From assembly GCF_008807375.1 (NCBI RefSeq), contig NZ_CP043311.1, positions 2,212,001 through 2,276,000 of the forward strand: 64,000 bases of DNA. Reading direction: 5' to 3'. Positions 477-52,410 of this stretch are shown here, in pieces. Under the pieces are notes generated by a model that was given only the letters and a program-made list of their open reading frames with translations, was not told the DNA's origin and made no database searches. Every line of letters begins with the position of its first letter. Position 1 is the first letter of the stretch. Source of the stretch: Pseudomonas lalkuanensis. GTDB lineage: Bacteria > Pseudomonadota > Gammaproteobacteria > Pseudomonadales > Pseudomonadaceae. The translations under genes and the position numbers were made by a program.

Positions 477-1826
477 TCAGGGGGTGGGGAATTCGAGGAT
501 GAAGCGCGTCCAGCCGTTGGCGGATTCGCAGCGGATTTCTCCGCCATGGGCGCGCACGATGGAGCGGGTGATGGCCAGGCCCAGGCCGGCATGCTCGCGA
601 CCCTCGCGGCGCGCGGGGTCGGCACGGTAGAAGCGGTCGAAGAGTCGCGGCAGCAGTTCCGCGGGTACTTCCGGACCGCTGTTGGCCACGGTGAGGCTGA
701 GGCCGTGGGCATCGCTGGCCAGGTTCAGTTCGATGCGCCCGCCTTCCGGGGTGAAGCGCAGGGCATTGTCCAGCAGATTGGAAAGCGCACGGCGCAGCAT
801 GTTCCGGTCGGCCCTGAGCCGGGCATCGCCACTGCGGCTCATGGTCACCTGGCGGTCCTCGGCCAGGGGGCTGAAGTAGTCCAGCAGGGTGTCCAGTTCG
901 GCTCCCAGCGCCAGGGGCTCGCGACGGGTCGCCAGCAGGCCGTGCTCTGCCTTGGCCAGGAACAGCATGTCGCCGACCATCTGGGCCAGTCGCTGGAGCT
1001 CTTCCAGGTTGGAGTGGAGGGCTTCGCGATATTCGTCCTTGCCGCGATCCTGGCTGAGGATCACCTGGGTCTGGGTCAGCAGGTTCGACAGCGGCGTGCG
1101 CAACTCGTGGGCGATGTCGGCGGAGAAGGCGGAAAGCCGCTGGAAGGCATCGTCCAGCCTGCCCAGCATCGCGTTGAAGGCGCGTACCAGTTCCACCAGC
1201 TCCTGAGGGACCTGATCGTCGGCCAGGCGGGTGGTCAGGGAGCTGGCGGAAACCCCGGCGGCCACCTCGGCCATGCGGTGCAGGGGGCGCAGGCCGCTAC
1301 GTGCGGCCCAGGCGCCGAGCAGGGCGGTGGCCAGGGCGGAGAGCCCCACGGTAAGCCAGATCAGCCGCTGCATGCGTTCGAGAAAGTGCTGGTGATGGGT
1401 GATGTCCAGGGCCAGTGCCAGTCGTGGCGAATCCGGGTCTTCGGGTCGCAGTGGCGCGCTCAGCACCCGGTAGTCGATGCCATCTTGCTGCCAGTCATGG
1501 AGCCCTTCGCGAGCCGGTGCGCGAAGGCCGTCAGCACTGTTGAACCAGTAACTGCCATTGCGGCCTTCCAGTCGCAGGGTGAGATCCGGGTGCAGGCGCA
1601 GTTCGGCTTGCAGGGCTTCCAGCCGAGGCGCCAGGGTGGCGGGGCTGTCGACGCCGCTGACCAGGGCGCGGAAGGCATCCAGGCGGGTTTCCAGCAGTTG
1701 CTGGTCGAGTTCGATGAAGTGCGCTTCGCTGGCGCGGCTGAACAGCACCCCGGCGATCAGCGAGACGGCGGCGGTGCAGGCGGCGAACAGCAGGCCCAGG
1801 CGGGCGGTGAGGGAGAGTCCGTGCAT
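477..1826 (-). CDS. copS: Heavy-metal (copper-type) sensor histidine kinase
   Basis: Inner-membrane sensor kinase of the CusS/IrlS/CopS family, 449 aa. Visible order: TM1 at about 9-29, periplasmic sensor region 30-152, TM2 at about 154-175, HAMP linker, HisKA box SADIAHELRTPLSN with phospho-acceptor His240, then HATPase N box (SNLLDNALRF) and G box (GLGLAITRSIV). It overlaps the upstream response regulator gene by one base at 1826, so the two are co-transcribed. The metal specificity is inferred from family similarity and from the cop-box-like site upstream of the operon; it is not proven by the sequence. Confidence 0.85.
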   Translation of the reverse strand: MHGLSLTARLGLLFAACTAAVSLIAGVLFSRASEAHFIELDQQLLETRLDAFRALVSGVDSPATLAPRLEALQAELRLHPDLTLRLEGRNGSYWFNSADGLRAPAREGLHDWQQDGIDYRVLSAPLRPEDPDSPRLALALDITHHQHFLERMQRLIWLTVGLSALATALLGAWAARSGLRPLHRMAEVAAGVSASSLTTRLADDQVPQELVELVRAFNAMLGRLDDAFQRLSAFSADIAHELRTPLSNLLTQTQVILSQDRGKDEYREALHSNLEELQRLAQMVGDMLFLAKAEHGLLATRREPLALGAELDTLLDYFSPLAEDRQVTMSRSGDARLRADRNMLRRALSNLLDNALRFTPEGGRIELNLASDAHGLSLTVANSGPEVPAELLPRLFDRFYRADPARREGREHAGLGLAITRSIVRAHGGEIRCESANGWTRFILEFPTP

Positions 1827-2506
1827 CAGCCTTCGCGCGCCTCCAGCACGTAGCCCATGCCGCGCACGGTATGGATCAGCTTGGTGGGGAAATCGTCGTC
1901 CAGCTTCGCCCGCAGCCGGCGGACGGCCACTTCGATGACATTGGTTTCGCTGTCGAAGTGCATGTCCCAGACCTCGGCGGCGATCAGTGTCTTGGGCAGC
2001 ACTTCGCCCTGGCGCCGCAGGAGGAATTCCAGCAGGGCGAACTCCTTGGTTGTGAGGTCGATGCGCCGGCCGCCGCGTTCGACCCGACGACTCAGCAGGT
2101 CGAGGTGCAGGTCGCCCAGGTCCAGGCTGGTCTCCTGTGGGGCGCTGGCGCCACGGCGGAGCAGGGTGCGTACGCGGGCGAGGAGTTCGGCGAAGGCGAA
2201 GGGCTTGATCAGGTAGTCGTCGGCGCCCAGTTCCAGGCCGTGGACGCGTTCTTCCACGGCGTCCCGCGCGGTCAGGAACAGCACCGGAACCTGCAGACCG
2301 GCCTGGCGCAGGCTGCGCAGTACCTGCCAGCCGTCGAGGCCGGGGAGCATCACGTCGAGGATGATCAGGTCGTATCCGCCGGCAAGGGCCAGGTCCCGGC
2401 CGTCGAGGCCGTTGGTGGCGAGGTCCGCGGCCAGGCCGGCTTCGGTCATGCCCTGGCGCAGGAACTGGCCGGTCTTGGGTTCGTCTTCGACTATCAGTAG
2501 CTTCAT
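1826..2506 (-). CDS. copR: Copper-type OmpR/PhoB-family response regulator
   Basis: 226-aa DNA-binding response regulator. The receiver domain holds the acidic pair E7/D8, phospho-acceptor Asp51 ([10 protein letters not shown]) and the conserved Lys in YLIKPF. A C-terminal winged helix (about 125-223) ends in the typical VRGMGYVLE. Length and sequence fit the IrlR/CopR/CusR metal-response subfamily. It is the first gene of a two-gene operon with the sensor kinase. The 15-bp site at 2567-2581, 61 bp upstream of the start, fits the Pseudomonas cop-box pattern and suggests autoregulation. Confidence 0.87.
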
Positions 2507-2566
2507 GGAGTGCTCATCGCTCGAATTGCTGCTTTATATCGCGCCGAAAGGATGGGCTGGGCAAGC

Positions 2567-2581
2567 TGACAAAGTTGTAAT
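2567..2581. promoter_or_regulatory. Candidate CopR-binding cop box
   Basis: TGACAAAGTTGTAAT fits the cop-box pattern TGACA-N4-TGTNAT described for Pseudomonas CopR. It lies in the divergent interval between copR and queF, 61 bp from copR and 90 bp from queF. Function is inferred. Confidence 0.6.
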
Positions 2582-2670
2582 GCAGCAGCACCGTTGGTGC
2601 CGTGGATTTTTCAGCAACCGCCCGGCTGTATACAATTGCCCGATTTCCGCATTTTCAGGTCCACCCCCCC

Positions 2671-3501
2671 ATGCACCATCCCGCCGAACATTCGCCGCTG
2701 GGCAAGTCCAGCGAGTACGTCAGCACCTACAGCCCGGAGCTGCTGTTCCCCATTTCCCGCGTGACCAAGTGGAACGAACTGGGGCTGACCGCTGCGACCT
2801 TGCCGTATCAGGGCGTGGACTTCTGGAACTGCTACGAGCTGTCCTGGCTGACGCCGTCCGGTAAGCCGGTGGTGGCGATTGGCGAGTTCGCCATTCCGGC
2901 CGATTCGCCGAACATCATCGAGTCCAAGTCGTTCAAGCTCTACCTCAACTCGCTGAACCAGTCCGTCTACACCAGTGCCGCCGAGCTGGAGCAGGTGCTG
3001 GCGCGGGACCTGAGTGGGGCGGCTGGCGCGCCGGTCGCGGTGCGGGTGCGCAGCCTGGCGGAGGTGGAGGCCGAAGGCGTCGCCACGTCCCCGGGCATCT
3101 GCATCGATGAGCTTGACGTGGCTATCGACCGTTATGAGCATCCGCAGCCCGAGTTGCTGCGCGCCGAAAACGGCCAGGCGGAAGAAGCGCTGCATAGCCA
3201 TCTGCTGAAGTCCAACTGCCCGGTTACCGGTCAGCCGGACTGGGGCACGGTGGCGGTGGAGTACCGCGGTGCGAAGCGCCTGGATCACGCCAGCTTCCTG
3301 GCCTACCTGATCAGCTTCCGTCAGCATGCCGACTTCCATGAGCAGTGCGTGGAGCGCATTTTCCTAGACCTCAAGCGCCTGCTGGAGCCGGAGCTGCTCA
3401 CGGTTCACGCCCGCTACGTACGCCGCGGCGGTCTGGACATCAATCCCTACCGCAGCACCCACCACGTCCAGCCGGACAATTGCCGTCTGGTACGGCAGTA
3501 A
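2671..3501 (+). CDS. queF: NADPH-dependent 7-cyano-7-deazaguanine reductase
   Basis: Reduces preQ0 to preQ1 in queuosine biosynthesis (cytosolic). The 276-aa form is the long, two-domain type II QueF. The NADPH-binding QueF motif [11 protein letters not shown] is at about 84-94. The active-site Cys183 sits in [14 protein letters not shown], with Asp190 as the likely proton-transfer partner. The start at ATG 2671 gives the usual Pseudomonas N terminus (MHHPAEHS); the frame is open further upstream, but that extension has no family support. A strong terminator follows at once. Its divergent position opposite copRS means it may share the cop-box-like site. Confidence 0.95.
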
Positions 3502-3503
3502 CG

Positions 3504-3534
3504 AAAACCCCGACTCGAAGTCGGGGTTTTTTCT
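3504..3534 (+). terminator. Rho-independent terminator after queF
   Basis: The stem CCCCGACT / AGTCGGGG with loop CGA is preceded by A's and followed by TTTTTTCTT. It can also end transcription of the convergent DUF4404 gene. Confidence 0.9.
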
Positions 3535-3545
3535 TGCACTCGGCC

Positions 3546-3809
3546 TCAGATGCCCATATTGGCAAGGCTCTGCATGATGTTCCGCAAGGTCCCGGCCAGG
3601 GTCGGGTGACGGGTTTCGAAGCGCTCGACGGCCAGGTTGACCCCATCCACCAGGGTGGCGTCCGGCGCCATGGCGGCATCCTGGGCCAGGCGCAGTTCGA
3701 TTTCCTGCATCAACTCGATCAGCGATGCGCGTTCCTCCGCATCCAGCGGCGGTTCCTGGGCCAGCTGGTCGCGCAGTTGTTGCAGTTGCTGCTGCAGGCG
3801 TTCAGGCAT
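3546..3809 (-). CDS. DUF4404 family protein
   Basis: Small 87-aa acidic, helical protein resembling DUF4404 (conserved in Pseudomonas, function unknown). It begins PERLQQQLQQLRDQL, a likely coiled-coil segment, and ends in VERFETRHPTLAGTLRNIMQSLANMGI. The start at 3809 was chosen because AGGGAGA lies 5-11 bp upstream; the longer in-frame start 17 codons earlier lacks such a site. No signal peptide or catalytic motif is visible. Confidence 0.8.
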   Translation of the reverse strand: MPERLQQQLQQLRDQLAQEPPLDAEERASLIELMQEIELRLAQDAAMAPDATLVDGVNLAVERFETRHPTLAGTLRNIMQSLANMGI

Positions 3810-3939
3810 GTCTTTCTCCCTTTGCGAATGTCTCAGGAGTGGACCCATTGAAGCATTCAAAGGTCCCTCATGCCTTAGAGATTAATCCAGCCTTGCCGGG
3901 CCTGCCTGATTCGGATCAAGCCTGAAACAAATGTACCGC

Positions 3940-4680
3940 TCAGGGTCTTTCGCCCTTTTCGCAGCGGTAGGCGAGGTCCGCCAGGCAGGGCGCCAGCTCG
4001 CCCAGATGGTCGATTACCGAATGGGCGCCCAGGCGGTAGAGCTTCAGGGTAGCGGCGGCGCGCAGGCGATCGCGTTCGCTGCCTTCCAGGGCGCGCCAGT
4101 CCGCCGGTGCCAGGCCGCACAGGGGGCCGCTGGCGGCCAGGCCAATGGTCCAGAGGCCCGCGTTCAGACCAGCCTGCAGCAGTCGCGGGTTGGCGCTGAT
4201 CAGCACGCAGCCTTCCAGGCGCGAAACACCCAGGCCGGCCAGGGCCTGCCAGCAGCTGTCCGGCGCCGGCCAGGGGCGTGCGCCGTTGATCTCGCTACCG
4301 CCAAGCCAGGCGGGCAGGGGAGTGGCGAGGCGCCAGCTGGCCGATGCGGGGAGTTCGTCGAGCCAGGCGCAGGGCACCTGGGCGCCGCCCATCAGGTTGC
4401 CCAGCTCTTCGAGGTCAGTGACGGCTTCGGCGTGTTCTCCGGCGGCGTCCAGCAGTTGCTGCTGAAAGGCCTGGAGCATTTCTTCGCCGGCGGGGCTGCC
4501 AAGGGCGTAGTCGAGGGCGGCGCGAGGGGGCAGGGCGGCGGCTTCGGCCAGTCGGGTCGCCGAGAGGTCCGGCAGCAATCGGCTCAGGGCCAGCGGCAGG
4601 GTTCGGGCACCGAAGTCCACCAGGCAGCCGGAGAGGCCGAAGAGGATGGCGGTGAAGGCGGGCGGTTGGCTGCGGGGCAT
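3940..4680 (-). CDS. Phosphonatase-like HAD-family protein without the nucleophile
   Basis: 246-aa protein with the overall layout of phosphonoacetaldehyde hydrolase-like HAD proteins. The N-terminal motif I region reads AILFGLSGCLVDFGART, where phosphonatases have ILDWAGTTVDFG. The position of the nucleophilic Asp is Gly here, while the later Asp of VDFG is kept. A helical cap follows, and GCVLISANPRLLQAGLNAGLWTIGLA looks like the motif III/IV region in diverged form. It probably keeps the fold but not classical HAD phosphotransfer chemistry. No phosphonate genes are nearby. Exact role unknown. Confidence 0.6.
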   Translation of the reverse strand: MPRSQPPAFTAILFGLSGCLVDFGARTLPLALSRLLPDLSATRLAEAAALPPRAALDYALGSPAGEEMLQAFQQQLLDAAGEHAEAVTDLEELGNLMGGAQVPCAWLDELPASASWRLATPLPAWLGGSEINGARPWPAPDSCWQALAGLGVSRLEGCVLISANPRLLQAGLNAGLWTIGLAASGPLCGLAPADWRALEGSERDRLRAAATLKLYRLGAHSVIDHLGELAPCLADLAYRCEKGERP

Positions 4681-30786: not shown

Positions 30787-31980
30787 TTACGAAGTGGCGC
30801 CTTCGGCTGATACCGATTTGATACCGATATTCAACTTTTCAAGCTCGCTCCAGTCGGAGCAGGAGTTGATCCAGCGGGCATACGTCGACAGCAACATTTG
30901 GACGCTATGACCAAGCTGCTGGGAGATGAAGGCGGGGTTCATGCCGGACATTAAGCAGATTGTCGCATAGGTGTGACGGCAATTGTATGGCGGCCGGTAT
31001 CTGATCCCGAGATCGCGAAGGGTAGGGCGCCACTGGTGATGGACGTTGGACGTCTCTCGGACGTGCTCCCGGTTCTTCGAAGGCGGGAATACGAAAGGCG
31101 TTTCCTTGACCTTCCCGACTCCGTTTTTCCGACGCTCGGCGTATTCCTTGGCGAACTGCAGAGCGTGCAGGGCGCGTTCATTGAGCAGGACGAAGCGGTC
31201 ATTGCCCGTCTTGGTCCGCTCCACCACCTTGCCCAGGGCGACGGTTCGGCAGACGTGCACCTGGCGCTTGTCGATGTCCACCGACTCCCAGCGCAGGGCC
31301 AGCGCCTCGGAAATCCGCAGTCCGGTGAAGAACAGGAATTCGAACAGCGCCGCGTAGATGCGGCTTGGCCAATGCGCTGTCTCGTACAGCTTCTCAATGA
31401 TCCGGTTCGCCTCCTCCAAGGTGAACGGATCAATCTCCTTCCGCGCCCGCCGCGGTAGCTCCAGCGGCTCTGCTGGGTTCTTCTCAATCAAACCATCCGC
31501 GACAGCGGCTTTCAGGATCGTCGAGATCCGAACGATGGCGTTGCGTTTCACGCCCGGCGAGGTCCATTCCGTACCCGAGAGGATGCGGCGCAGCGCTGTC
31601 GTGGTGATCAGGTCGATCCGTGTCAGCGCCAGGTGCGGCATCCAGTACAGGTTCAGGCAGCTCTTGTAGTTCTGGTAGGTGCCCGGGGTGATCTCGCGGC
31701 TGTCCAGCCAGAGCTGGGCATAGTCGTTGAAGCGATGGCCACCGCCCACGGCACCGCCGGACCAGGGGAACAGCTCGGCGTACTTGGCGTCATCCAGCAG
31801 GCCGAGCTTGATCAGGCCGACTACCTGATCCCTAAGCTGGGATGCAGCCTTGATCCCCTTTTGCGTGGTGGGATACGGGAGCGTTTCGCAGCAGCGTCGT
31901 CCGTGCCAGGTGAAGCGAATGCGGAGGGAGTTGCGGAAGAGTTCCACCCCGGTGGGCATACCCACTGACTTTCCAGCCAT
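30787..31980 (-). CDS. int: Prophage tyrosine integrase
   Basis: 397-aa site-specific recombinase that inserts and, with an excisionase, removes the prophage. The N-terminal arm-binding region (GVELFRNSLRIRFTWHGRRC) is DUF3596-like. The core-binding domain is at about 90-170. Catalytic residues: Arg in GLRISEALAL, Lys region in ERTKTGNDRF, YNCRHTYA in place of HxLRHT (a common variant), LGHS, and the nucleophile Tyr in STYARW. The gene lies at the left prophage edge, its 3' end facing the host ABC-F gene. Confidence 0.93.
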   Translation of the reverse strand: MAGKSVGMPTGVELFRNSLRIRFTWHGRRCCETLPYPTTQKGIKAASQLRDQVVGLIKLGLLDDAKYAELFPWSGGAVGGGHRFNDYAQLWLDSREITPGTYQNYKSCLNLYWMPHLALTRIDLITTTALRRILSGTEWTSPGVKRNAIVRISTILKAAVADGLIEKNPAEPLELPRRARKEIDPFTLEEANRIIEKLYETAHWPSRIYAALFEFLFFTGLRISEALALRWESVDIDKRQVHVCRTVALGKVVERTKTGNDRFVLLNERALHALQFAKEYAERRKNGVGKVKETPFVFPPSKNREHVRETSNVHHQWRPTLRDLGIRYRPPYNCRHTYATICLMSGMNPAFISQQLGHSVQMLLSTYARWINSCSDWSELEKLNIGIKSVSAEGATS

Positions 31981-41222: not shown

Positions 41223-41438
41223 TCAGGCAGCCGGGCGGATGCTTCTGCTGGCGCCGGCGGTGCGAGTGATCAGGCCCTTGCGATCGAGGGCGTTGATGCG
41301 GTCCTGAACAGCGTTCTCGTTGACGCGGGCGAGCTTGGCCAACTCAGCCACGGTGGGTGAGTAGCCTTTCTCTGCGATGAAGTCTCGGATGTGCTGCAGG
41401 GATTCTTCCTGCTTGGGGGAGGGTTTCAGCCGGGCCAT
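41223..41438 (-). CDS. LexA-type winged-helix DNA-binding protein without peptidase domain
   Basis: 71 aa. PKQEESLQHIRDFIAEKGYS and PTVAELAKLARVNENAVQDR match the LexA N-terminal helix-turn-helix; IRPAA ends the protein where LexA would continue into its self-cleaving domain. It may recognise SOS-like operators without being cleaved. GGAGGACGA lies before the start. Confidence 0.7.
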   Translation of the reverse strand: MARLKPSPKQEESLQHIRDFIAEKGYSPTVAELAKLARVNENAVQDRINALDRKGLITRTAGASRSIRPAA

Positions 41439-43978: not shown

Positions 43979-44007
43979 AATTTAAGCAAGCTGAATTTAT
44001 AGGTCAA
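43979..44007 (-). promoter_or_regulatory. Leftward early promoter PL
   Basis: Leftward strand: TTGACC, 17-bp spacer, TAAATT. Both boxes are overlapped by repressor operators at 43982 and 44004, as expected for CI repression. Confidence 0.65.
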
Positions 44008-44040
44008 GCATGCTGAAGAAATATTCTTTAGCTTGCTGAA
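43982..44040. promoter_or_regulatory. OL: three CI/Cro operator sites
   Basis: Three 14-bp near-palindromes: TTAAGCAAGCTGAA (43982-43995), TCAAGCATGCTGAA (44004-44017) and TTTAGCTTGCTGAA (44027-44040), spaced 22 and 23 bp. The consensus TTAAGCATGCTGAA also occurs exactly at OR. Confidence 0.75.
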
Positions 44041-44055
44041 TTGATGGGCCATGAA

Positions 44056-44079
44056 AAAGCCCGCTCGAAGGCGGGCTTT
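44056..44079 (-). terminator. Terminator of the DUF1654 gene
   Basis: AAAGCCCGC / GCGGGCTTT stem with TTTTT on the leftward strand, 12 bp after the stop; it insulates OL from incoming transcription. Confidence 0.85.
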
Positions 44080-44091
44080 AGGGGGAGATGG

Positions 44092-44340
44092 TTAGAGCTC
44101 GTTCTCGACGTACCAGGCGAGGTGAGCGCTTCCGTCTGGGCGCGGTGTGATGGTCACCACTTCAGCGTCCCGGATCTCCTCAATGAGGCGATCCCAGTCG
44201 CTCTGGGATTCGTGGGGCTCACGCCTGATGATCACCTGATGCTCAGCCTGGGCGAGCCTGGAGTGGACGGCTGCGTGGATGCGGCGGGTGAGGGCGGCGT
44301 AGGTTTTGGCGGATTGACGGTCAAGGGAATGCGCTTCCAT
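44092..44340 (-). CDS. DUF1654 family protein, LexA-box controlled
   Basis: 82 aa. KTYAALTRRIHAAVHSRLAQ ... HQVIIRREPHESQSDWDRLI ... ITPRPDGSAHLAW follows the DUF1654 pattern found in Pseudomonas and its prophages. AAGGAGG lies 8 bp before the ATG. A near-perfect LexA box begins 17 bp upstream of the start, so it should be induced by DNA damage. Function unknown; the size is similar to DinI, but sequence similarity to it is not evident. Confidence 0.78.
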   Translation of the reverse strand: MEAHSLDRQSAKTYAALTRRIHAAVHSRLAQAEHQVIIRREPHESQSDWDRLIEEIRDAEVVTITPRPDGSAHLAWYVENEL

Positions 44341-44356
44341 GGGGTTCCTCCTTGTG

Positions 44357-44372
44357 CTGTATATCCATACAG
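44357..44372. promoter_or_regulatory. LexA (SOS) box
   Basis: CTGTATATCCATACAG has the CTG-N10-CAG core with an AT-rich, nearly symmetric centre. It lies between divergent genes at 44340 (minus) and 44461 (plus) and could control both. Confidence 0.8.
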
Positions 44373-44460
44373 TATTTGTGGAGGTTTCCCAATTCAAGGT
44401 TTCCCGGGCCTGGGGCGAAATCACCTGTAAACTTCACGCGCATATTCGATGGAGAATCCC

Positions 44461-44703
44461 ATGTCCCTGAACCTTGCCAACATGCCCAAGGATGACCGCC
44501 AGGTCATCGAAGACGAGAAGGCCCGCCTGTTTGAGTTCTGGCAGCTGAACCTGGAGCGCGCGAAAGGGGAGGCCGGGAGGATCTGGCTGGAGAAGGACAG
44601 ACGCAAAGGGAAGTGGCAGGACTGGGCCGCCGAGCAGATCGACGCCCTGAATCCACCGGAGTATCAGAGCATGGTGAAGCGCGAGCTGGCGCGGATGGGC
44701 TGA
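44461..44703 (+). CDS. Small helical phage protein
   Basis: 80 aa, highly charged (MSLNLANMPKDDRQVIEDEK; RKGKWQDWAAEQIDALNPPE). GGAGAATCCC precedes ATG 44461. It is divergent from the DUF1654 gene and shares its LexA-box interval. A hairpin at 44714-44741 follows. No family recognised. Confidence 0.6.
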   Translation: MSLNLANMPKDDRQVIEDEKARLFEFWQLNLERAKGEAGRIWLEKDRRKGKWQDWAAEQIDALNPPEYQSMVKRELARMG

Positions 44704-44713
44704 ACCAGAAACG

Positions 44714-44741
44714 AAAAGCCCCGCACTTGGCTGGGCTTTTT
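44714..44741 (+). terminator. Hairpin terminator after the 44461 gene
   Basis: AAAAGCCC...GGGCTTTTT stem with an internal mismatched loop and a T tail; it also faces the toxin-like gene on the other strand. Confidence 0.7.
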
Positions 44742-44755
44742 GGGGGCATGGGTGC

Positions 44756-45148
44756 TTAGCGCTGCCTAAAGAGCATCTTGCGCTCAGGGATCTTGAATGG
44801 GTTGTGAGATCCGTAATCGACCAGCGCGATGTAGGTATCCGAGAATTTCTGGAAATGGACCAGGAAATCGGAGGTCTGATAGGTTCCGTAGGGATTCCTA
44901 CTAGCAATCCAGCATGGGTAGCCGACGTGGGCGTGCCACAGCAATTGTTTGTTCGCCCACCAGATTTTGTGGATTCGATCCGGGTCTATTGCTGGGACGT
45001 TGTCCGTTCTCGCAACCTTGCCGATGAAATTCTTGAGCCCGAAATCCCGGAAATGGAAGACGAAGTCTTCTATGAGCGATTGTTCTAGCTCAGTCAGGCA
45101 ATCGAATTTGTCGGTGAAATGCTCGCTGAATTCTATTTTGAACGGCAT
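44756..45148 (-). CDS. Putative RelE/ParE-like toxin of a two-gene module
   Basis: 130 aa. KIEFSEHFTDKFDCLTELEQ ... IGKVARTDNVPAIDPDRIHK ... LLWHAHVGYPCW ... YIALVDYGSHNPF has the size and strand pattern of a RelE-superfamily toxin (an mRNA-interferase-like fold). It overlaps by 16 bp the 59-aa gene upstream, the classic antitoxin-toxin arrangement. It lies between OL and cI, a region expressed in lysogens. Assignment is inferential; catalytic residues were not identified. Confidence 0.55.
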   Translation of the reverse strand: MPFKIEFSEHFTDKFDCLTELEQSLIEDFVFHFRDFGLKNFIGKVARTDNVPAIDPDRIHKIWWANKQLLWHAHVGYPCWIASRNPYGTYQTSDFLVHFQKFSDTYIALVDYGSHNPFKIPERKMLFRQR

Positions 45149-45312
45149 TTACGGGCGTTCTCGCGCATCCATTCACGGAACTCTTCGCGAGAAAGGCCCT
45201 CAGGCATGACAAAGCGCTCACCAGAGATGGCTTTCTCCATACGGCGCTGGTCGAAGTTCACTTCGTCATGCGAGACGTTGTGCTTCGGTGCTGAGAAATC
45301 AAGACCTTTCAT
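45133..45312 (-). CDS. Putative antitoxin (59 aa)
   Basis: MKGLDFSAPKHNVSHDEVNF, then DQRRMEKAISGERFVMPEGL and SREEFREWMRENARKCRSK. Small, charged and helical, directly upstream of and overlapping the toxin-like gene by 16 bp. No obvious DNA-binding motif; the antitoxin role is inferred from layout. Confidence 0.5.
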   Translation of the reverse strand: MKGLDFSAPKHNVSHDEVNFDQRRMEKAISGERFVMPEGLSREEFREWMRENARKCRSK

Positions 45313-45378
45313 AACGTTGGCCCTCGGTGGGCTCCGTAACTCATTAAAATCGCCGATCTATCGGCCTTACAACGTAGG

Positions 45379-45427
45379 ACACCAAGCAGATCATGGCGTT
45401 CGACTTAACGAACATTCTGCTTGGTGT
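45379..45427. promoter_or_regulatory. Long nested inverted repeat upstream of the toxin-antitoxin-like pair
   Basis: ACACCAAGCAG (45379-45389) pairs perfectly with CTGCTTGGTGT (45417-45427), and GTTCG/CGAAC forms a nested inner stem. It lies 67 bp upstream of the antitoxin start. It may be an operator, a terminator or a structured RNA. Confidence 0.55.
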
Positions 45428-45518
45428 TGTGAGTGTATAGCTGGAGCGCACAGCCTGCGCAACGTGATGGCAGATATCCAGTACCGTCCGTCACCGCCGC
45501 AAACCGACTGACGCCACC

Positions 45519-46016
45519 TCACTGTCCCACAATCTCCCGATACCGCCGCTGGTACTCCTCGTAGCTCAGGCCGGTTTCGCGATTTAGCTGGTCGATCTGC
45601 TGCTGTTTCCACGTCTCCCGGGATAGGGAGCCAGGCGCGGCTGCTGGAGCCGAGTTGGGGGCTGGCGCATAGGTGCTGATTGCCGAGCCGCTATCACCAC
45701 TACCAATGCACTGGAACTGGATCGTCACTTGTCCCGCGACACAGTTCCCCCAGCCGTCTATCTGGTGGCACTGCTGGCGCTTACCGCCGAACATTTCGGC
45801 ATCCTGGTAGCCCCACACCCGGCATTTCGACTTCGCAATGGTCTTGGCTTGTTCGACGTTAACCACCGGCTTTTCGAACTGACGGAAGTCATAAGCCATG
45901 TCGACGGTGCCGTCTGCGCGGCTGCCTCCCATGGCGTAGAAGTCTTTTTTCGTGGCGCAGCCAGTGACTGCAACGGCCGCGGATAGCGCGAGTACTGCGA
46001 GAGGTATGGTGCGCAA
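45519..46016 (-). CDS. YecR-like lipoprotein, lysogenic-conversion candidate
   Basis: 165 aa. Lipoprotein signal with lipobox VTGC (Cys20). The mature part GGSRADGTVDMAYDFRQFEK ... AKTIAKSKCRVWGYQDAEMF ... GWGNCVAGQVTIQFQCIG resembles YecR-like lipoproteins. The C terminus is Pro/Ala-rich then helical. The start is TTG 46016, preceded by an ideal AAGGAGG. It lies 27 bp downstream of cI on the same strand, so it is probably co-expressed with the repressor in lysogens. Confidence 0.75.
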   Translation of the reverse strand: MRTIPLAVLALSAAVAVTGCATKKDFYAMGGSRADGTVDMAYDFRQFEKPVVNVEQAKTIAKSKCRVWGYQDAEMFGGKRQQCHQIDGWGNCVAGQVTIQFQCIGSGDSGSAISTYAPAPNSAPAAAPGSLSRETWKQQQIDQLNRETGLSYEEYQRRYREIVGQ

Positions 46017-46043
46017 GGCGACCTCCTTGTCGTTGTGGGTTCG

Positions 46044-46697
46044 TTATAGCTTCATCTTTGCTTCTTTCACCACCCCAATGATCCTGCAGTTCCCGTTGAT
46101 AGGGATGATCGGGTAGGCGGGATTCAGGGGCTTCAGGTACATCTGGCCGGCATCGCTGACCAGCTTCTTGAAGGTGGCTTTCTCGTCGCCCTCCAACTTG
46201 GCCACCACCAGGTGCCCGGGCTGGGCCTCTATGCCGGTGTCGACCAGGATCAGATGGCCCTCCGGGATGCTTGGTGGAGTGGGGGAGGTCATCGAATCGC
46301 CTTCGACCTCCAGCCAGAAGGCCGGGCCCTTGGCCTTGTAGTCGGTCAGTTCGGCGCGATCTTCGGCGCCCGGCTCGTAGGGCTGGACGGCTTCGCCCCA
46401 TCCGCCAGCAACAACGCTGCTGATCACGGCGTACCGGTAGTAGCGGGAAGGCTGAGCCGCCGGGCTGACGTTGGAGGCATCCTCGTCGCGCTCTGGGCCC
46501 TTTCCAATGGCAAGCCACTCGGCCCGATAACCAGTCGCCTCCGCGAGGGCGTAAAGATTCTCTGGCTTCATGCTTTTGCTTTCGCCAGAGATCCACTGAG
46601 TTACGGCCGAGGCCGCAACGCCACATTCGGCTGCGATCTCGCCTTTCTTCTTGCCGCTGGCCGCGATGGCTTTGGCGATTCGTTCGTGTCGTTCCAT
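46044..46697 (-). CDS. cI: CI-type phage repressor (LexA/S24 self-cleaving)
   Basis: 217 aa. An N-terminal HTH (GEIAAECGVAASAVTQWISG) at about 19-38 binds operators. The C-terminal S24 peptidase domain has cleavage site Ala97-Gly98 (SVVAGGWGEA), catalytic Ser135 (VEGDSMTSP) and Lys177 (ATFKKL). RecA-stimulated self-cleavage would induce the prophage. No strong ribosome site precedes ATG 46697, so the maintenance transcript may be leaderless or weakly translated, as in lambda. Divergent from the Cro-like gene across OR. Confidence 0.92.
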   Translation of the reverse strand: MERHERIAKAIAASGKKKGEIAAECGVAASAVTQWISGESKSMKPENLYALAEATGYRAEWLAIGKGPERDEDASNVSPAAQPSRYYRYAVISSVVAGGWGEAVQPYEPGAEDRAELTDYKAKGPAFWLEVEGDSMTSPTPPSIPEGHLILVDTGIEAQPGHLVVAKLEGDEKATFKKLVSDAGQMYLKPLNPAYPIIPINGNCRIIGVVKEAKMKL

Positions 46698-46706
46698 GAG
46701 CTCAGA

Positions 46707-46777
46707 TTAAGTTAACTGAAATTAAGCATGCAGTAGTCGTGTTGGCTGTCTTGCTCTCAATGATTCAGCATGCTTAA
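46707..46777. promoter_or_regulatory. OR: three CI/Cro operator sites
   Basis: TTAAGTTAACTGAA (46707-46720), TTAAGCATGCAGTA (46722-46735) and TTCAGCATGCTTAA (46764-46777, exact reverse complement of the consensus TTAAGCATGCTGAA). The last overlaps the PR -10 region; the first two lie next to the cI start. Confidence 0.75.
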
Positions 46778-46779
46778 AT
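46751..46779 (+). promoter_or_regulatory. Rightward early promoter PR
   Basis: TTGCTC, 17-bp spacer, TTAAAT, 27 bp upstream of the Cro-like start. The operator at 46764-46777 covers the spacer and -10. Confidence 0.6.
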
Positions 46780-46805: not shown

Positions 46806-47003
46806 ATGCGCACTCAAGACGCCGCCGACTACTTCGGCAGCAAGAAGAAACTGGCCGAGGCGCTGCACATCCAGCCGAGCGCCGTGACTCAGTGGGGCGA
46901 AGAAGTCCCGTGGGTCCGCCAGTACCAGATCGAAGTCCTCAGCAATGGCGCTCTGAAGGCGGGTCCTCCCCCAAAGAGGACAGCCATGGAGGGCGCCCTG
47001 TGA
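46806..47003 (+). CDS. cro: Cro-like repressor
   Basis: 65 aa with a YdaS/Cro-type HTH: TQDAADYFGSKKKLAEALHI, then QPSAVTQWGEEVPWVRQYQI. Its HTH resembles that of the divergent CI (both contain SAVTQW), fitting shared operators. ATG 46806 is preceded by GAGGAG; earlier in-frame ATGs overlap the operator and are unlikely. First gene of the rightward operon. Confidence 0.85.
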   Translation: MRTQDAADYFGSKKKLAEALHIQPSAVTQWGEEVPWVRQYQIEVLSNGALKAGPPPKRTAMEGAL

Positions 47004-47432: not shown

Positions 47433-48044
47433 GTGAACACGTCCAATCCAAGACGCACCAACACCCGTGATCAGGTCCTGCGCGCCTATGCCCAGGAACA
47501 GATCGCCCGCACGAGCCTGAGCCAGGACGACTTCGCCCAGGCCCTGAGCCGAACCCTTCACCAGAAGTGCCACGCCACGGCAGACGCCGAGCGTGTGCCG
47601 GACTTCGAGTCCGATCTGCTGCGCAATGACACCGGCGAGTTCATCAAGGCCGCTGGTCGCTGGCTGAAGCGTGTGCAGCGCCTGCTGAGCGGTGAACAGG
47701 AGATGCCGTGCTGGATGGAGGAGGCCTGGGTGGCTGCGCTTGAGCCGGAGTGGCGAGACCGCTGCGTCAATGAGCTCGCGTCCCGCTACGGCCTGACCGG
47801 TGCGCGCTCTCAGGATGGGGACTTCTGCCCGGCCACTTCATTCGGTCGCCTTGTGAAGCACATCGGCGGGGCGGTGGAGGCCTGCAGCGCCATTCTGGCC
47901 GACGGCCAAGTAGATGTGAATGACGCTGCTGAGTTGCCCGGGGCGATTCACGAACTGCGGTCGATGATCGCGCGTGCTCATGAGTTGGAGAGCCGCATGG
48001 TCCGTGAAGCCGAGAGTGCCGGCACAGTTCTGACCACGCATTAA
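47433..48044 (+). CDS. Phage early protein of unknown function (YdaT-like position)
   Basis: 203 aa, helical. RTNTRDQVLRAYAQEQIART ... AGRWLKRVQRLLSGEQEMPC ... WMEEAWVAALEPEWRDRCVN. GTG 47433 has AGGAG 7 bp upstream. It lies between cro and the antirepressor where enterobacterial prophages carry YdaT-like regulators, and the general layout is similar; sequence similarity is weak. A GC-rich hairpin follows at 48049-48086. Confidence 0.6.
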   Translation: MNTSNPRRTNTRDQVLRAYAQEQIARTSLSQDDFAQALSRTLHQKCHATADAERVPDFESDLLRNDTGEFIKAAGRWLKRVQRLLSGEQEMPCWMEEAWVAALEPEWRDRCVNELASRYGLTGARSQDGDFCPATSFGRLVKHIGGAVEACSAILADGQVDVNDAAELPGAIHELRSMIARAHELESRMVREAESAGTVLTTH

Positions 48045-51077: not shown

Positions 51078-51433
51078 TGCAGGGTCGCAGTGTCACCCAG
51101 GCTCAGAAGGACTGGCATCACATGCTGGTCAACGGCGTTGGCTGCATCGCCTGCCGCGTCGACACCGGCGAGTTCAACGACTTCTGCAGCATCCACCACA
51201 TCGACGGCCGCACCAAGCCGCACGCGCACTGGAGCGTGTTGCCGCTGTGTGCCGCGCACCACCAGACCGGTGGCGAGGGTGTGGCCCTGCACCACAACAA
51301 GGCCCGCTTCGAGCAGCGCTTCGGCACCCAGCGCGAACTGCTCGAGCGCTGCATGCGGATCCTGACCGAGGACGGCCACGACATCCCGGCGGCCTTCCTG
51401 GCCTGGCACGACGGGGAGGGCATCGAGGCATGA
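51074..51433 (+). CDS. Ref-like HNH nuclease
   Basis: 119 aa. GCIACRVDTGEFNDFCSIHH, DGRTKPHAHWSVLPLCAAHH and GEGVALHH contain the Cys pair and His-rich metal sites of the P1 Ref family, RecA-dependent nucleases that enhance recombination. Common in the nin-like region of phages. Overlaps neighbours on both sides. Confidence 0.8.
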   Translation: MMQGRSVTQAQKDWHHMLVNGVGCIACRVDTGEFNDFCSIHHIDGRTKPHAHWSVLPLCAAHHQTGGEGVALHHNKARFEQRFGTQRELLERCMRILTEDGHDIPAAFLAWHDGEGIEA

Positions 51434-52410
51434 GCCGCGATGCCTTCAAGACCGTCGGCCAGGTGATCACCTGGTGGATCGGGCGCATCGAGCAGAACCG
51501 TACCGTGTCGACCAGCTATCGCCGCACCATGGCCAGTCTGGCCAAGCGGCACCTGATCCCCCGTCTGGGCGGTGTGAAGCTGAAGCAACTGAGCCGCGCC
51601 GTGGTGGACGACAAGCTGGTCTGGCCGATGCAGCAGACCCACTCGCCGCACACCGCGCACAAGGCCCTGCAGGGCTTGCAGCAGTCGCTGGCGCTGGCCG
51701 AGAAGCAAGGGCGGATCGAGGTCAATCCACTGTCGGCCGTGAGCTGGAAGGACTTCTGGACCGGCAACCTGCCGCCGCGCCCGGCCGGCCTGCTGCCGGT
51801 GGCCATCCCGACCCTGCTGCCGCACCTCTGCCAGACCCTGGAGCAGGACCCGGTGGCCGGCATGCTGGCGCTGATGATGCTGGCCCACGGTACCCGCATC
51901 GGGGAAACCTGCCTGGCGCAGTGGCAGCACATCAGCCTGCCGGAGCGGGTGTGGATCATCCCGGCGCAGAACACCAAGACCGGCCAGGAACTGGTGGTGC
52001 CGCTGACCGACCAGGTGTGCGCGTTGCTGACCCGCTACCGCGAGTTGCAGCACCCGGCCCGTCGCAACAGCGCATGGGTGTTCGCCATGGCCGGCGGCGC
52101 ACCGCTGTCTGCTGCGATGGCCTCCCACATGTTCCGCGCCATGAGCAACCGCCAATGGCGCAGCCATGACCTGCGCAAGCTGGCCCGCACTGTGTGGGCA
52201 GAGCTCGGCATCGACTTCCTGGTGGGTGAGCTGATGCTCAACCACTCCATGGGCAAGCTGGCCAGCACCTACATCAAGACCGGCATCGACCAGGCGCGTC
52301 GCAAGGGGCTGGAGGCCTGGCATGCGTACCTCGATGAGCGTGGTTTCACCGAGGCGCACGGGCTGAAAAGTGCCGAAATAAGCTTTTCCTCGACTGCCGT
52401 TCCGGCCTAG
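51430..52410 (+). CDS. Second tyrosine recombinase, internal to the replication module
   Basis: 326 aa. The core-binding N domain (about 5-100) is followed by a catalytic domain with Arg in HGTRIGETCLA, Lys in NTKTGQELVV, SHDLRKLART (HxLR box), LNHS and Tyr in STYIKT. All catalytic residues seem present. It has no arm-binding domain and is not at a prophage end. ATGA overlap with the Ref-like gene makes it a fixed part of the recombination cassette. Its DNA target is unknown. Confidence 0.82.
   Translation: MSRDAFKTVGQVITWWIGRIEQNRTVSTSYRRTMASLAKRHLIPRLGGVKLKQLSRAVVDDKLVWPMQQTHSPHTAHKALQGLQQSLALAEKQGRIEVNPLSAVSWKDFWTGNLPPRPAGLLPVAIPTLLPHLCQTLEQDPVAGMLALMMLAHGTRIGETCLAQWQHISLPERVWIIPAQNTKTGQELVVPLTDQVCALLTRYRELQHPARRNSAWVFAMAGGAPLSAAMASHMFRAMSNRQWRSHDLRKLARTVWAELGIDFLVGELMLNHSMGKLASTYIKTGIDQARRKGLEAWHAYLDERGFTEAHGLKSAEISFSSTAVPA

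Follow-up and report, generated by a model that had tools for sequence, protein, structure and literature searches.

Probable lambda-type double-operator immunity switch with operators of the P22/phage 21 type in a Pseudomonas lalkuanensis prophage region

The window analysed here, a 64,000-nucleotide stretch of the Pseudomonas lalkuanensis chromosome (NZ_CP043311.1, positions 2,212,001 to 2,276,000), very probably carries the immunity switch of a temperate Pseudomonas phage, arranged as a lambda-type double-operator circuit with operators of the P22/phage 21 type. The reading is built on the operator sites, their conservation among relatives, their overlap with promoter-like sequences, the types of the adjoining genes and the match of both operator and Cro to P22 and phage 21; from these we infer binding, repression, control of the promoter of the repressor gene (PRM) and repressor cleavage. 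The right operator cluster (OR) lies between the divergent genes cI (46044..46697, minus strand; 217 aa, with a helix-turn-helix (HTH) and an S24 peptidase domain) and cro (46806..47003, plus strand; 65 aa, P22_Cro family), and the left cluster (OL) lies past cI over a candidate leftward promoter (PL), so that both the lambda-like double-operator logic and the CI-type and Cro-like neighbours of OR proposed in a first-pass annotation of this DNA hold up.

The operator consists of two half-sites, TTAAG or TTCAG (roughly TNMAG), with four bases between them. OL contains OL1 (TTAAGCAAGCTGAA, 43982..43995), OL2 (TCAAGCATGCTGAA, 44004..44017) and OL3 (TTTAGCTTGCTGAA, 44027..44040, a match to both motif and matrix), all read on the plus strand and spaced by 22 and 23 bp. 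OR contains a cI-proximal site (OR3, 46707..46720, plus strand), a weak middle site (TTAAGCATGCAGTA, 46722..46735, plus strand) and a cro-proximal site (OR1, 46764..46777, minus strand), spaced by 15 and then 42 bp, with the outer sites 57 bp apart. The first-pass annotation had described six copies of a 14-bp motif, and all six places exist where it located them; when the six are compared, however, only the cro-proximal site is the exact 14-mer TTAAGCATGCTGAA, on the minus strand, just as one OR copy had been said to be the exact inverse of the consensus. The remaining sites differ from the 14-mer at one position (43982 and 44004), two positions (44027 and 46722) or four (46707, counted by hand). 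Because this four-mismatch site, TTAAGTTAACTGAA, nevertheless has two perfect half-sites, TTMAG-N4-CTKAA is a better description of the motif than the 14-mer.

A matrix built from relatives, with the OL sites of the window left out of its training and the OR sites entered at weight 1 of 22, gives its top five scores of the 64 kb to five of these six sites, the three in OL (43982, 44004, 44027) and the two outer ones in OR (46707, 46764). Their scores are 22.0 (OL1, the best), 18.5, 18.5, 8.7 and 8.7 bits, and the next place scores 6.0. When each strand is counted separately, the window holds 12 matches with at most three mismatches to the 14-mer, where 100 shuffles gave 2.67 on average and never more than 11. 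Rarity in the chromosome (6.06 Mb) was judged by pattern searches of the host's own genome, the matrix having been run on the 64-kb window. The first-pass annotation had named equal frequency of the motif across the chromosome as evidence that would count against its proposal, and here the outcome depends on stringency: three of the four chromosomal places within one mismatch of the 14-mer are at the switch (reversed-pattern control, 0), but the loose motif is widespread and not specific, since matches at up to three mismatches are abundant (146 forward and 161 reverse, versus 73 and 71 in the control).

The candidate PL (TTGACC, 17 nt, TAAATT; 43979..44007, minus strand) coincides exactly with OL, in agreement with the earlier claim that the three sites sit over a leftward promoter. 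OL1 overlaps its -10 element, and the TCAAG half of OL2 is the reverse of TTGAC in its -35 element. Across the 64 related loci that have an OL triple, OL2 invariably contains GTCAAG, which is CTTGAC on the opposite strand, so that its half-site and the -35 element of PL would have bases in common. On the other side of cI, a candidate rightward promoter (PR; TTGCTC, 17 nt, TTAAAT; 46751..46779, plus strand) surrounds the cro-proximal site; 86 of 90 loci have a TTG 13 bp upstream of that site, and 85 of 90 have TGAAAT or TTAAAT as a -10 element that overlaps its right half. A candidate extended -10 element of PRM, TGCTTAATT (46720..46728, minus strand), points toward cI directly past the cI-proximal site and resembles the -10 element of PR. 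We also considered the N4 differences between the outer OR sites as a means of discrimination between CI and Cro, which we keep only as a minor idea, since the extended -10 (TG in N4) explains them better.

The OL, cI, OR, cro layout is conserved across many Pseudomonas phages. With a profile of the CI HTH, matches were found in 24 of the 398 genomes from this bacterial family, counting the genome of the window, and in 130 viral_contigs stretches, the best 80 of which were taken into the family analysis. Among 134 sequences (several redundant, the window among them) the HTH is present in 125 and a divergent Cro in 116. These yielded 100 distinct OR regions, of which two were too short and seven were dropped because Cro was not found, leaving 91 loci (the window's own, L028, included) that group into 22 clusters at 80% identity. 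All but one of the 91 (90 loci) have the outer OR pair, at a distance of 56, 57 or 58 bp in 61, 27 and 2 loci, and 64 of the 91 have an OL triple with 21-23 bp spacing; among the 60 loci with at least 4.5 kb of sequence on the left side of cI, the triple is found in 51 (control with the reversed pattern and control on the right side, 0/91 each). Where OL was found, its distance from the start of cI is 851-4927 bp. The difference between the OR (15, 42 bp) and OL (22, 23 bp) spacings noted in the first-pass annotation is thus confirmed and is conserved in relatives. The P. aeruginosa phages BUCT566, LC3I3, PAShipCat1 and Flu_PA14_4 have the same OL triple at 22/23 bp and the same outer OR pair. 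A scan for the OL pattern in DNA alone, with no protein criterion, returned 17 stretches in viral_contigs (reversed control, 0) and 2 in genome_contigs, and the CI HTH and a P22-type Cro are both present in the stretch for 14 of these 19. Of the others, L026 appears, from an identical length of 350,517 bases, to be the same contig as L137, which has both genes, L011, L014 and L015 end near OL on the cI side, and in L020 cI was not found within 2.6 kb beyond OL.

The resemblance to P22 and phage 21 is apparent when a half-site matrix derived from the 91 loci, with both phages absent from its training, is run on their sequences: the four best matches in P22 (5 kb) fall within the annotated OL and OR stretches, and the four best in phage 21 (8 kb) are the annotated OL1, OL2 and two OR sites. 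The operator therefore appears to be of the P22/phage 21 type and not new; the "different operator sequence" of the first-pass annotation stands with respect to lambda and fails with respect to P22 and phage 21. The window Cro belongs to PF14549 (P22_Cro, 1.7e-21), and its best match in the PDB is P22 Cro (1.8e-8). The C-terminal domain of CI matches lambda CI (4e-31), and in the alignment the A-G, Ser and Lys with roles in CI self-cleavage fall in line. A model of the CI HTH (mean pLDDT 90.7) has P22 c2 as its second-best fold match (3jxb; E 1.1e-3, TM 0.83/0.90, 26% identity), in a fold that is common and for which DdrO ranks first. CI looks mosaic, with a BUCT566-like N-terminus and a C-terminus like those of Aurca01/MR13 and lambda-type repressors.

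In the proposed switch, CI dimers bound to OL and to the cro-proximal site of OR would cover the -10 elements and spacers of PL and PR, and their occupancy would keep both promoters off in the lysogen. Cro would read the same sites as CI. The cI-proximal site, together with the weak middle site that overlies the candidate -10 element of PRM, may set cI expression, and DNA damage would lead to CI self-cleavage and release of the switch.

Several observations weigh against this reading. The closest fold match of the CI HTH model is DdrO rather than c2, and P22 c2 was not found in the PDB at E<1 by the CI HTH sequence profile. The middle OR sites of the reference phages score low with the matrix (7th in P22, 10th in phage 21), and that of the window, at 2.8 bits, is at background level and is beaten by at least nine unrelated places. 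Five other phages with a related Cro were scanned, of which only Vibrio K242 has sites of this kind in its OR; in D14O there is a single weak match, and YA3, CGphi29 and BUCT708 have none of note. A P22-type Cro alone therefore does not imply the operator type. The promoter-pattern search around OL gave one match against a shuffle mean of 1.2, so that by consensus alone the match is at chance level, and it is position and conservation only that argue for the candidate PL. The OL triple was not found in 27 of the 91 loci, 18 of which have less than 4.5 kb of leftward sequence and nine of which do not fall short in this way; L139, L145, L146 and L151 have an OL pair 34 bp apart and no triple. 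Finally, three same-genus relatives, L134-L136 (two genomes), have a complete set of three OR sites (0, +15 and +57/58), and no OL array was found for them in the stretches searched leftward.

The most sweeping alternative is that OL and OR are chance palindromes of AT-rich intergenic DNA, an idea that gains some footing from the genome-wide counts of the half-site pattern: TTMAGN4CTKAA occurs at 12 places in the chromosome, three of them at the switch and the nine elsewhere all of the form TTCAG...CTGAA, and this total is close to the 10 of the reversed control. We regard it as having practically no prospect of being right. The sites are clustered locally, OL and OR recur in 64 and 90 of the 91 loci, and the matrix recovers operators of P22 and phage 21; the conservation data have already refuted it. 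A far more serious contender concerns the middle OR element, which might be the PRM extended -10 (TGCTTAAT) only and not an operator, its half-site look arising because operator half-sites double as -10 elements. Consistent with this, the left half of the +15 position (counted from the cI-proximal site) is conserved at 4.59/5 and the right half at 2.38/5, 12.4 of the 22 clusters, after weighting, have TGCTTAAAT or TACTTAAAT as its reverse complement, and the window site scores just 2.8 bits. Yet L029, L030 and L033, loci of the same genus as the host, have a perfect operator in exactly the +15 register, and the window site is one mismatch from TNMAGN4CTKNA, a closeness that background offsets reach (at most one mismatch) in only about 0.4% of cases. 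We give this explanation a little less than an even chance.

A middle operator could also lie at +22 from the cI-proximal site (46729-46742), with spacing like that of OL and the first-pass register 7 bp off. Two middle-site registers do exist across the 91 loci, and by frequency the perfect TNMAGN4CTKNA favours +22 (26 loci, 5.9/22 clusters) over +15 (3 loci, 2.0/22 clusters). In the window, however, the +22 sequence TGCAGTAGTCGTGT is the worse of the two, with two mismatches against one and a score of -14.7 bits for the locus of the window itself (L028), and the same-genus relatives L029, L030 and L033 use +15. We consider the +22 position unlikely here, and the +15 register seems the better fit to the window. 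In L029, L030 and L033, which have the full +15 site, no OL array was found in the stretches searched leftward; with just three loci to go on, a link between a full +15 site and a missing OL is no more than a lead.

Beside OL lies a gene for an 82-aa DUF1654 protein (44092..44340, minus strand; PF07867, 1.6e-16) with a LexA (SOS) box, CTGTATATCCATACAG, upstream (44357..44372, plus strand); CTGTN8ACAG occurs at one other place in the window, 38109. Of the 145 sequences screened for DUF1654, 80 contain it. Among 70 distinct DUF1654 genes beside switches (the window included, and one place, L049/L152, counted twice), CTG-N10-CAG stands just upstream of 68, versus 5 of 70 control segments of the same size, and the stricter CTGT-N8-ACAG upstream of 62, versus none. 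In 67 of the 70 a strong operator follows downstream within 400 bp, and in 56 of the 70 the DUF1654 match ends 100-120 bp away from the first operator, whatever the distance to cI. For DUF1654 at large, a family search covering 59 genomes gave 28 genes, of which 26 could be scanned; 21 have the box (control, 4/26) and only three, the window's own included, have an operator nearby. Because DUF1654 genes at large often have the box, and are thus often SOS genes, but rarely have the operators, the box belongs to the gene family and the placement beside OL to the phage family of the window. Between the DUF1654 gene and OL is a predicted leftward intrinsic terminator, a hairpin followed by a T run (44049..44086, minus strand); a GC hairpin with a T run was seen by eye at this position in 21 of 29 loci listed, and three of the eight without a terminator call have sequence that ends too early.

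The function of DUF1654 is called unknown in a passage of PMC13028781, and domain-family, literature and fold searches found no role for it. A model of its 82 residues (mean pLDDT 81.8) found no PDB match at E<=0.001, the best (0.069) being a ribosomal protein. We rejected homology to AlpA, described in the relevant passage of PMC9371919 as a longer, Q-like protein with an HTH near residues 128-142: a PDB search with the window protein gave no match to AlpA at E up to 10, and this absence, together with the greater length and Q-like nature of AlpA, argues that DUF1654 is not an AlpA homologue. Four genomes carry orphan loci (L141, L147, L148 and L149) with a cI of the same HTH, a LexA-box DUF1654 and P22-type operators, in which no cro match was found; L141 and L149 have a small protein of 109-110 aa after the operator. 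A holin assignment for the gene past the orphan operator was dropped, as Pfam gave only sub-cutoff matches to Wzy_C and Acyl_transf_3. The orphan loci recall the P. aeruginosa Alp system, a likeness seen in the layout. LexA-controlled antirepressors are known in 186 (Tum), N15 and Gifsy phages, and with a LexA box upstream DUF1654 has that feature of the antirepressors of 186 (Tum) and Gifsy. We hypothesize that it may do the job of a LexA-controlled antirepressor, and the gene and its box together suggest a second DNA-damage input to the switch. In its fullest form, the idea would be that a cleavable CI on P22-type operators and, between cI and OL, a DUF1654 gene controlled by the host LexA, its product counteracting CI or acting on the adjoining leftward promoter, bring two DNA-damage inputs to one locus, that DUF1654 is a family of SOS regulators of Pseudomonas prophages not assigned before, and that some chromosomes also retain cI and DUF1654 as an orphan locus with the same operator. 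We put this forward tentatively and think it rather improbable as a whole, weakened as it is by an orphan-operator gene with no holin match and by the lack of a clear fold relative for DUF1654.

Other genes complete the region. A CII-like activator is predicted rightward of cro (47433..48044, plus strand; phrog_4834, 5.7e-36). Between DUF1654 and cI is an accessory pocket (44449..46016) with small open reading frames at 44449-44703 (plus), 44756-45148 (minus) and 45145-45312 (minus) and a YecR-like lipoprotein gene at 45519-46016 (minus). The naming of 44756-45148 and 45145-45312 as a toxin-antitoxin pair was rejected, there being no Pfam or NCBIfam match; the product of 44756-45148 has only an unnamed PHROG match. 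The small genes of this pocket between OL and cI are variable, the corresponding stretch in L020 being 1796-3981, and the pocket position resembles that of lambda rex. Left of OL, on the leftward strand, a 71-aa protein (41223-41438, minus) has a LexA DNA-binding domain alone (PF01726, 6.8e-14) and could compete for SOS boxes. Two integrase-family genes flank the immunity region (30787-31980, minus, and 51406-52410, plus).

The operator description offers a sequence-level rule to predict which Pseudomonas prophages may have common immunity. The natural OR variants, with 15-bp, 22-bp or degenerate middle sites and with or without a found OL, offer a means to gauge how much cooperativity and looping a switch of the lambda type needs, and DUF1654 is pointed out as an SOS-controlled neighbour of prophage switches. 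The exact 14-mers were not found in the published papers searched, and by title and abstract, with few subscription papers covered, we found no published Pseudomonas CI/Cro operator work on the operator family of the window.

Among known systems, P22 has in common with the window the TTAAG-N4 half-site, a P22-family Cro and the order OL-repressor-OR-cro. Unlike P22, the family of the window commonly has TTCAG half-sites, and the N-terminus of its CI is far diverged in sequence from that of c2. The outer OR sites are 57 bp apart in the window and 48 bp in P22, the middle OR site is 15 bp from the repressor-proximal site in the window and 25 bp in P22, and the second OL match of P22 is 35 bp from the first, where the window has 22 bp. 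P22 does have a TCAAG 22 bp from OL1, without a good second half; a 22-bp OL1-OL2 distance in P22 was considered and dropped, the matrix and the phage 21 annotation both pointing to 35 bp. Where the window has DUF1654 with its LexA box between cI and OL, nothing is annotated in P22 between c2 and OL. The annotated spacing in phage 21 (35 and 29 bp in OL, 25 and 23 bp in OR) also differs from that of the window, whose 15 and 42 bp depart from the P22/phage-21-like OR spacing of about 25 and 23 bp. Nearer to the phage 21 spacing than the window triple is the OL pair, 34 bp apart, of L139, L145, L146 and L151; it constitutes a second OL type, close to the 35-bp distance in P22 and phage 21. Lambda, like the window, has two separate operator clusters flanking cI, the same type of CI C-terminal domain and a CII-like gene rightward, and differs in operator sequence and OR spacing. 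Of the Pseudomonas phages, BUCT566, LC3I3, PAShipCat1 and Flu_PA14_4 have a CI HTH and a Cro 66% and 63% identical to those of the window, with a cI start about 0.85 kb from OL and no DUF1654 match in the stretches searched. Phage D3 has a cI-cro pair and three annotated putative operators, with operator sequences that differ when compared by eye and an even 24-bp spacing; the matrix was run there only on the stretch left of these operators. The kind of switch is thus a known one, and it is the OR layout, with its unusual and conserved spacing, and the neighbouring LexA-box gene that set this variant apart.

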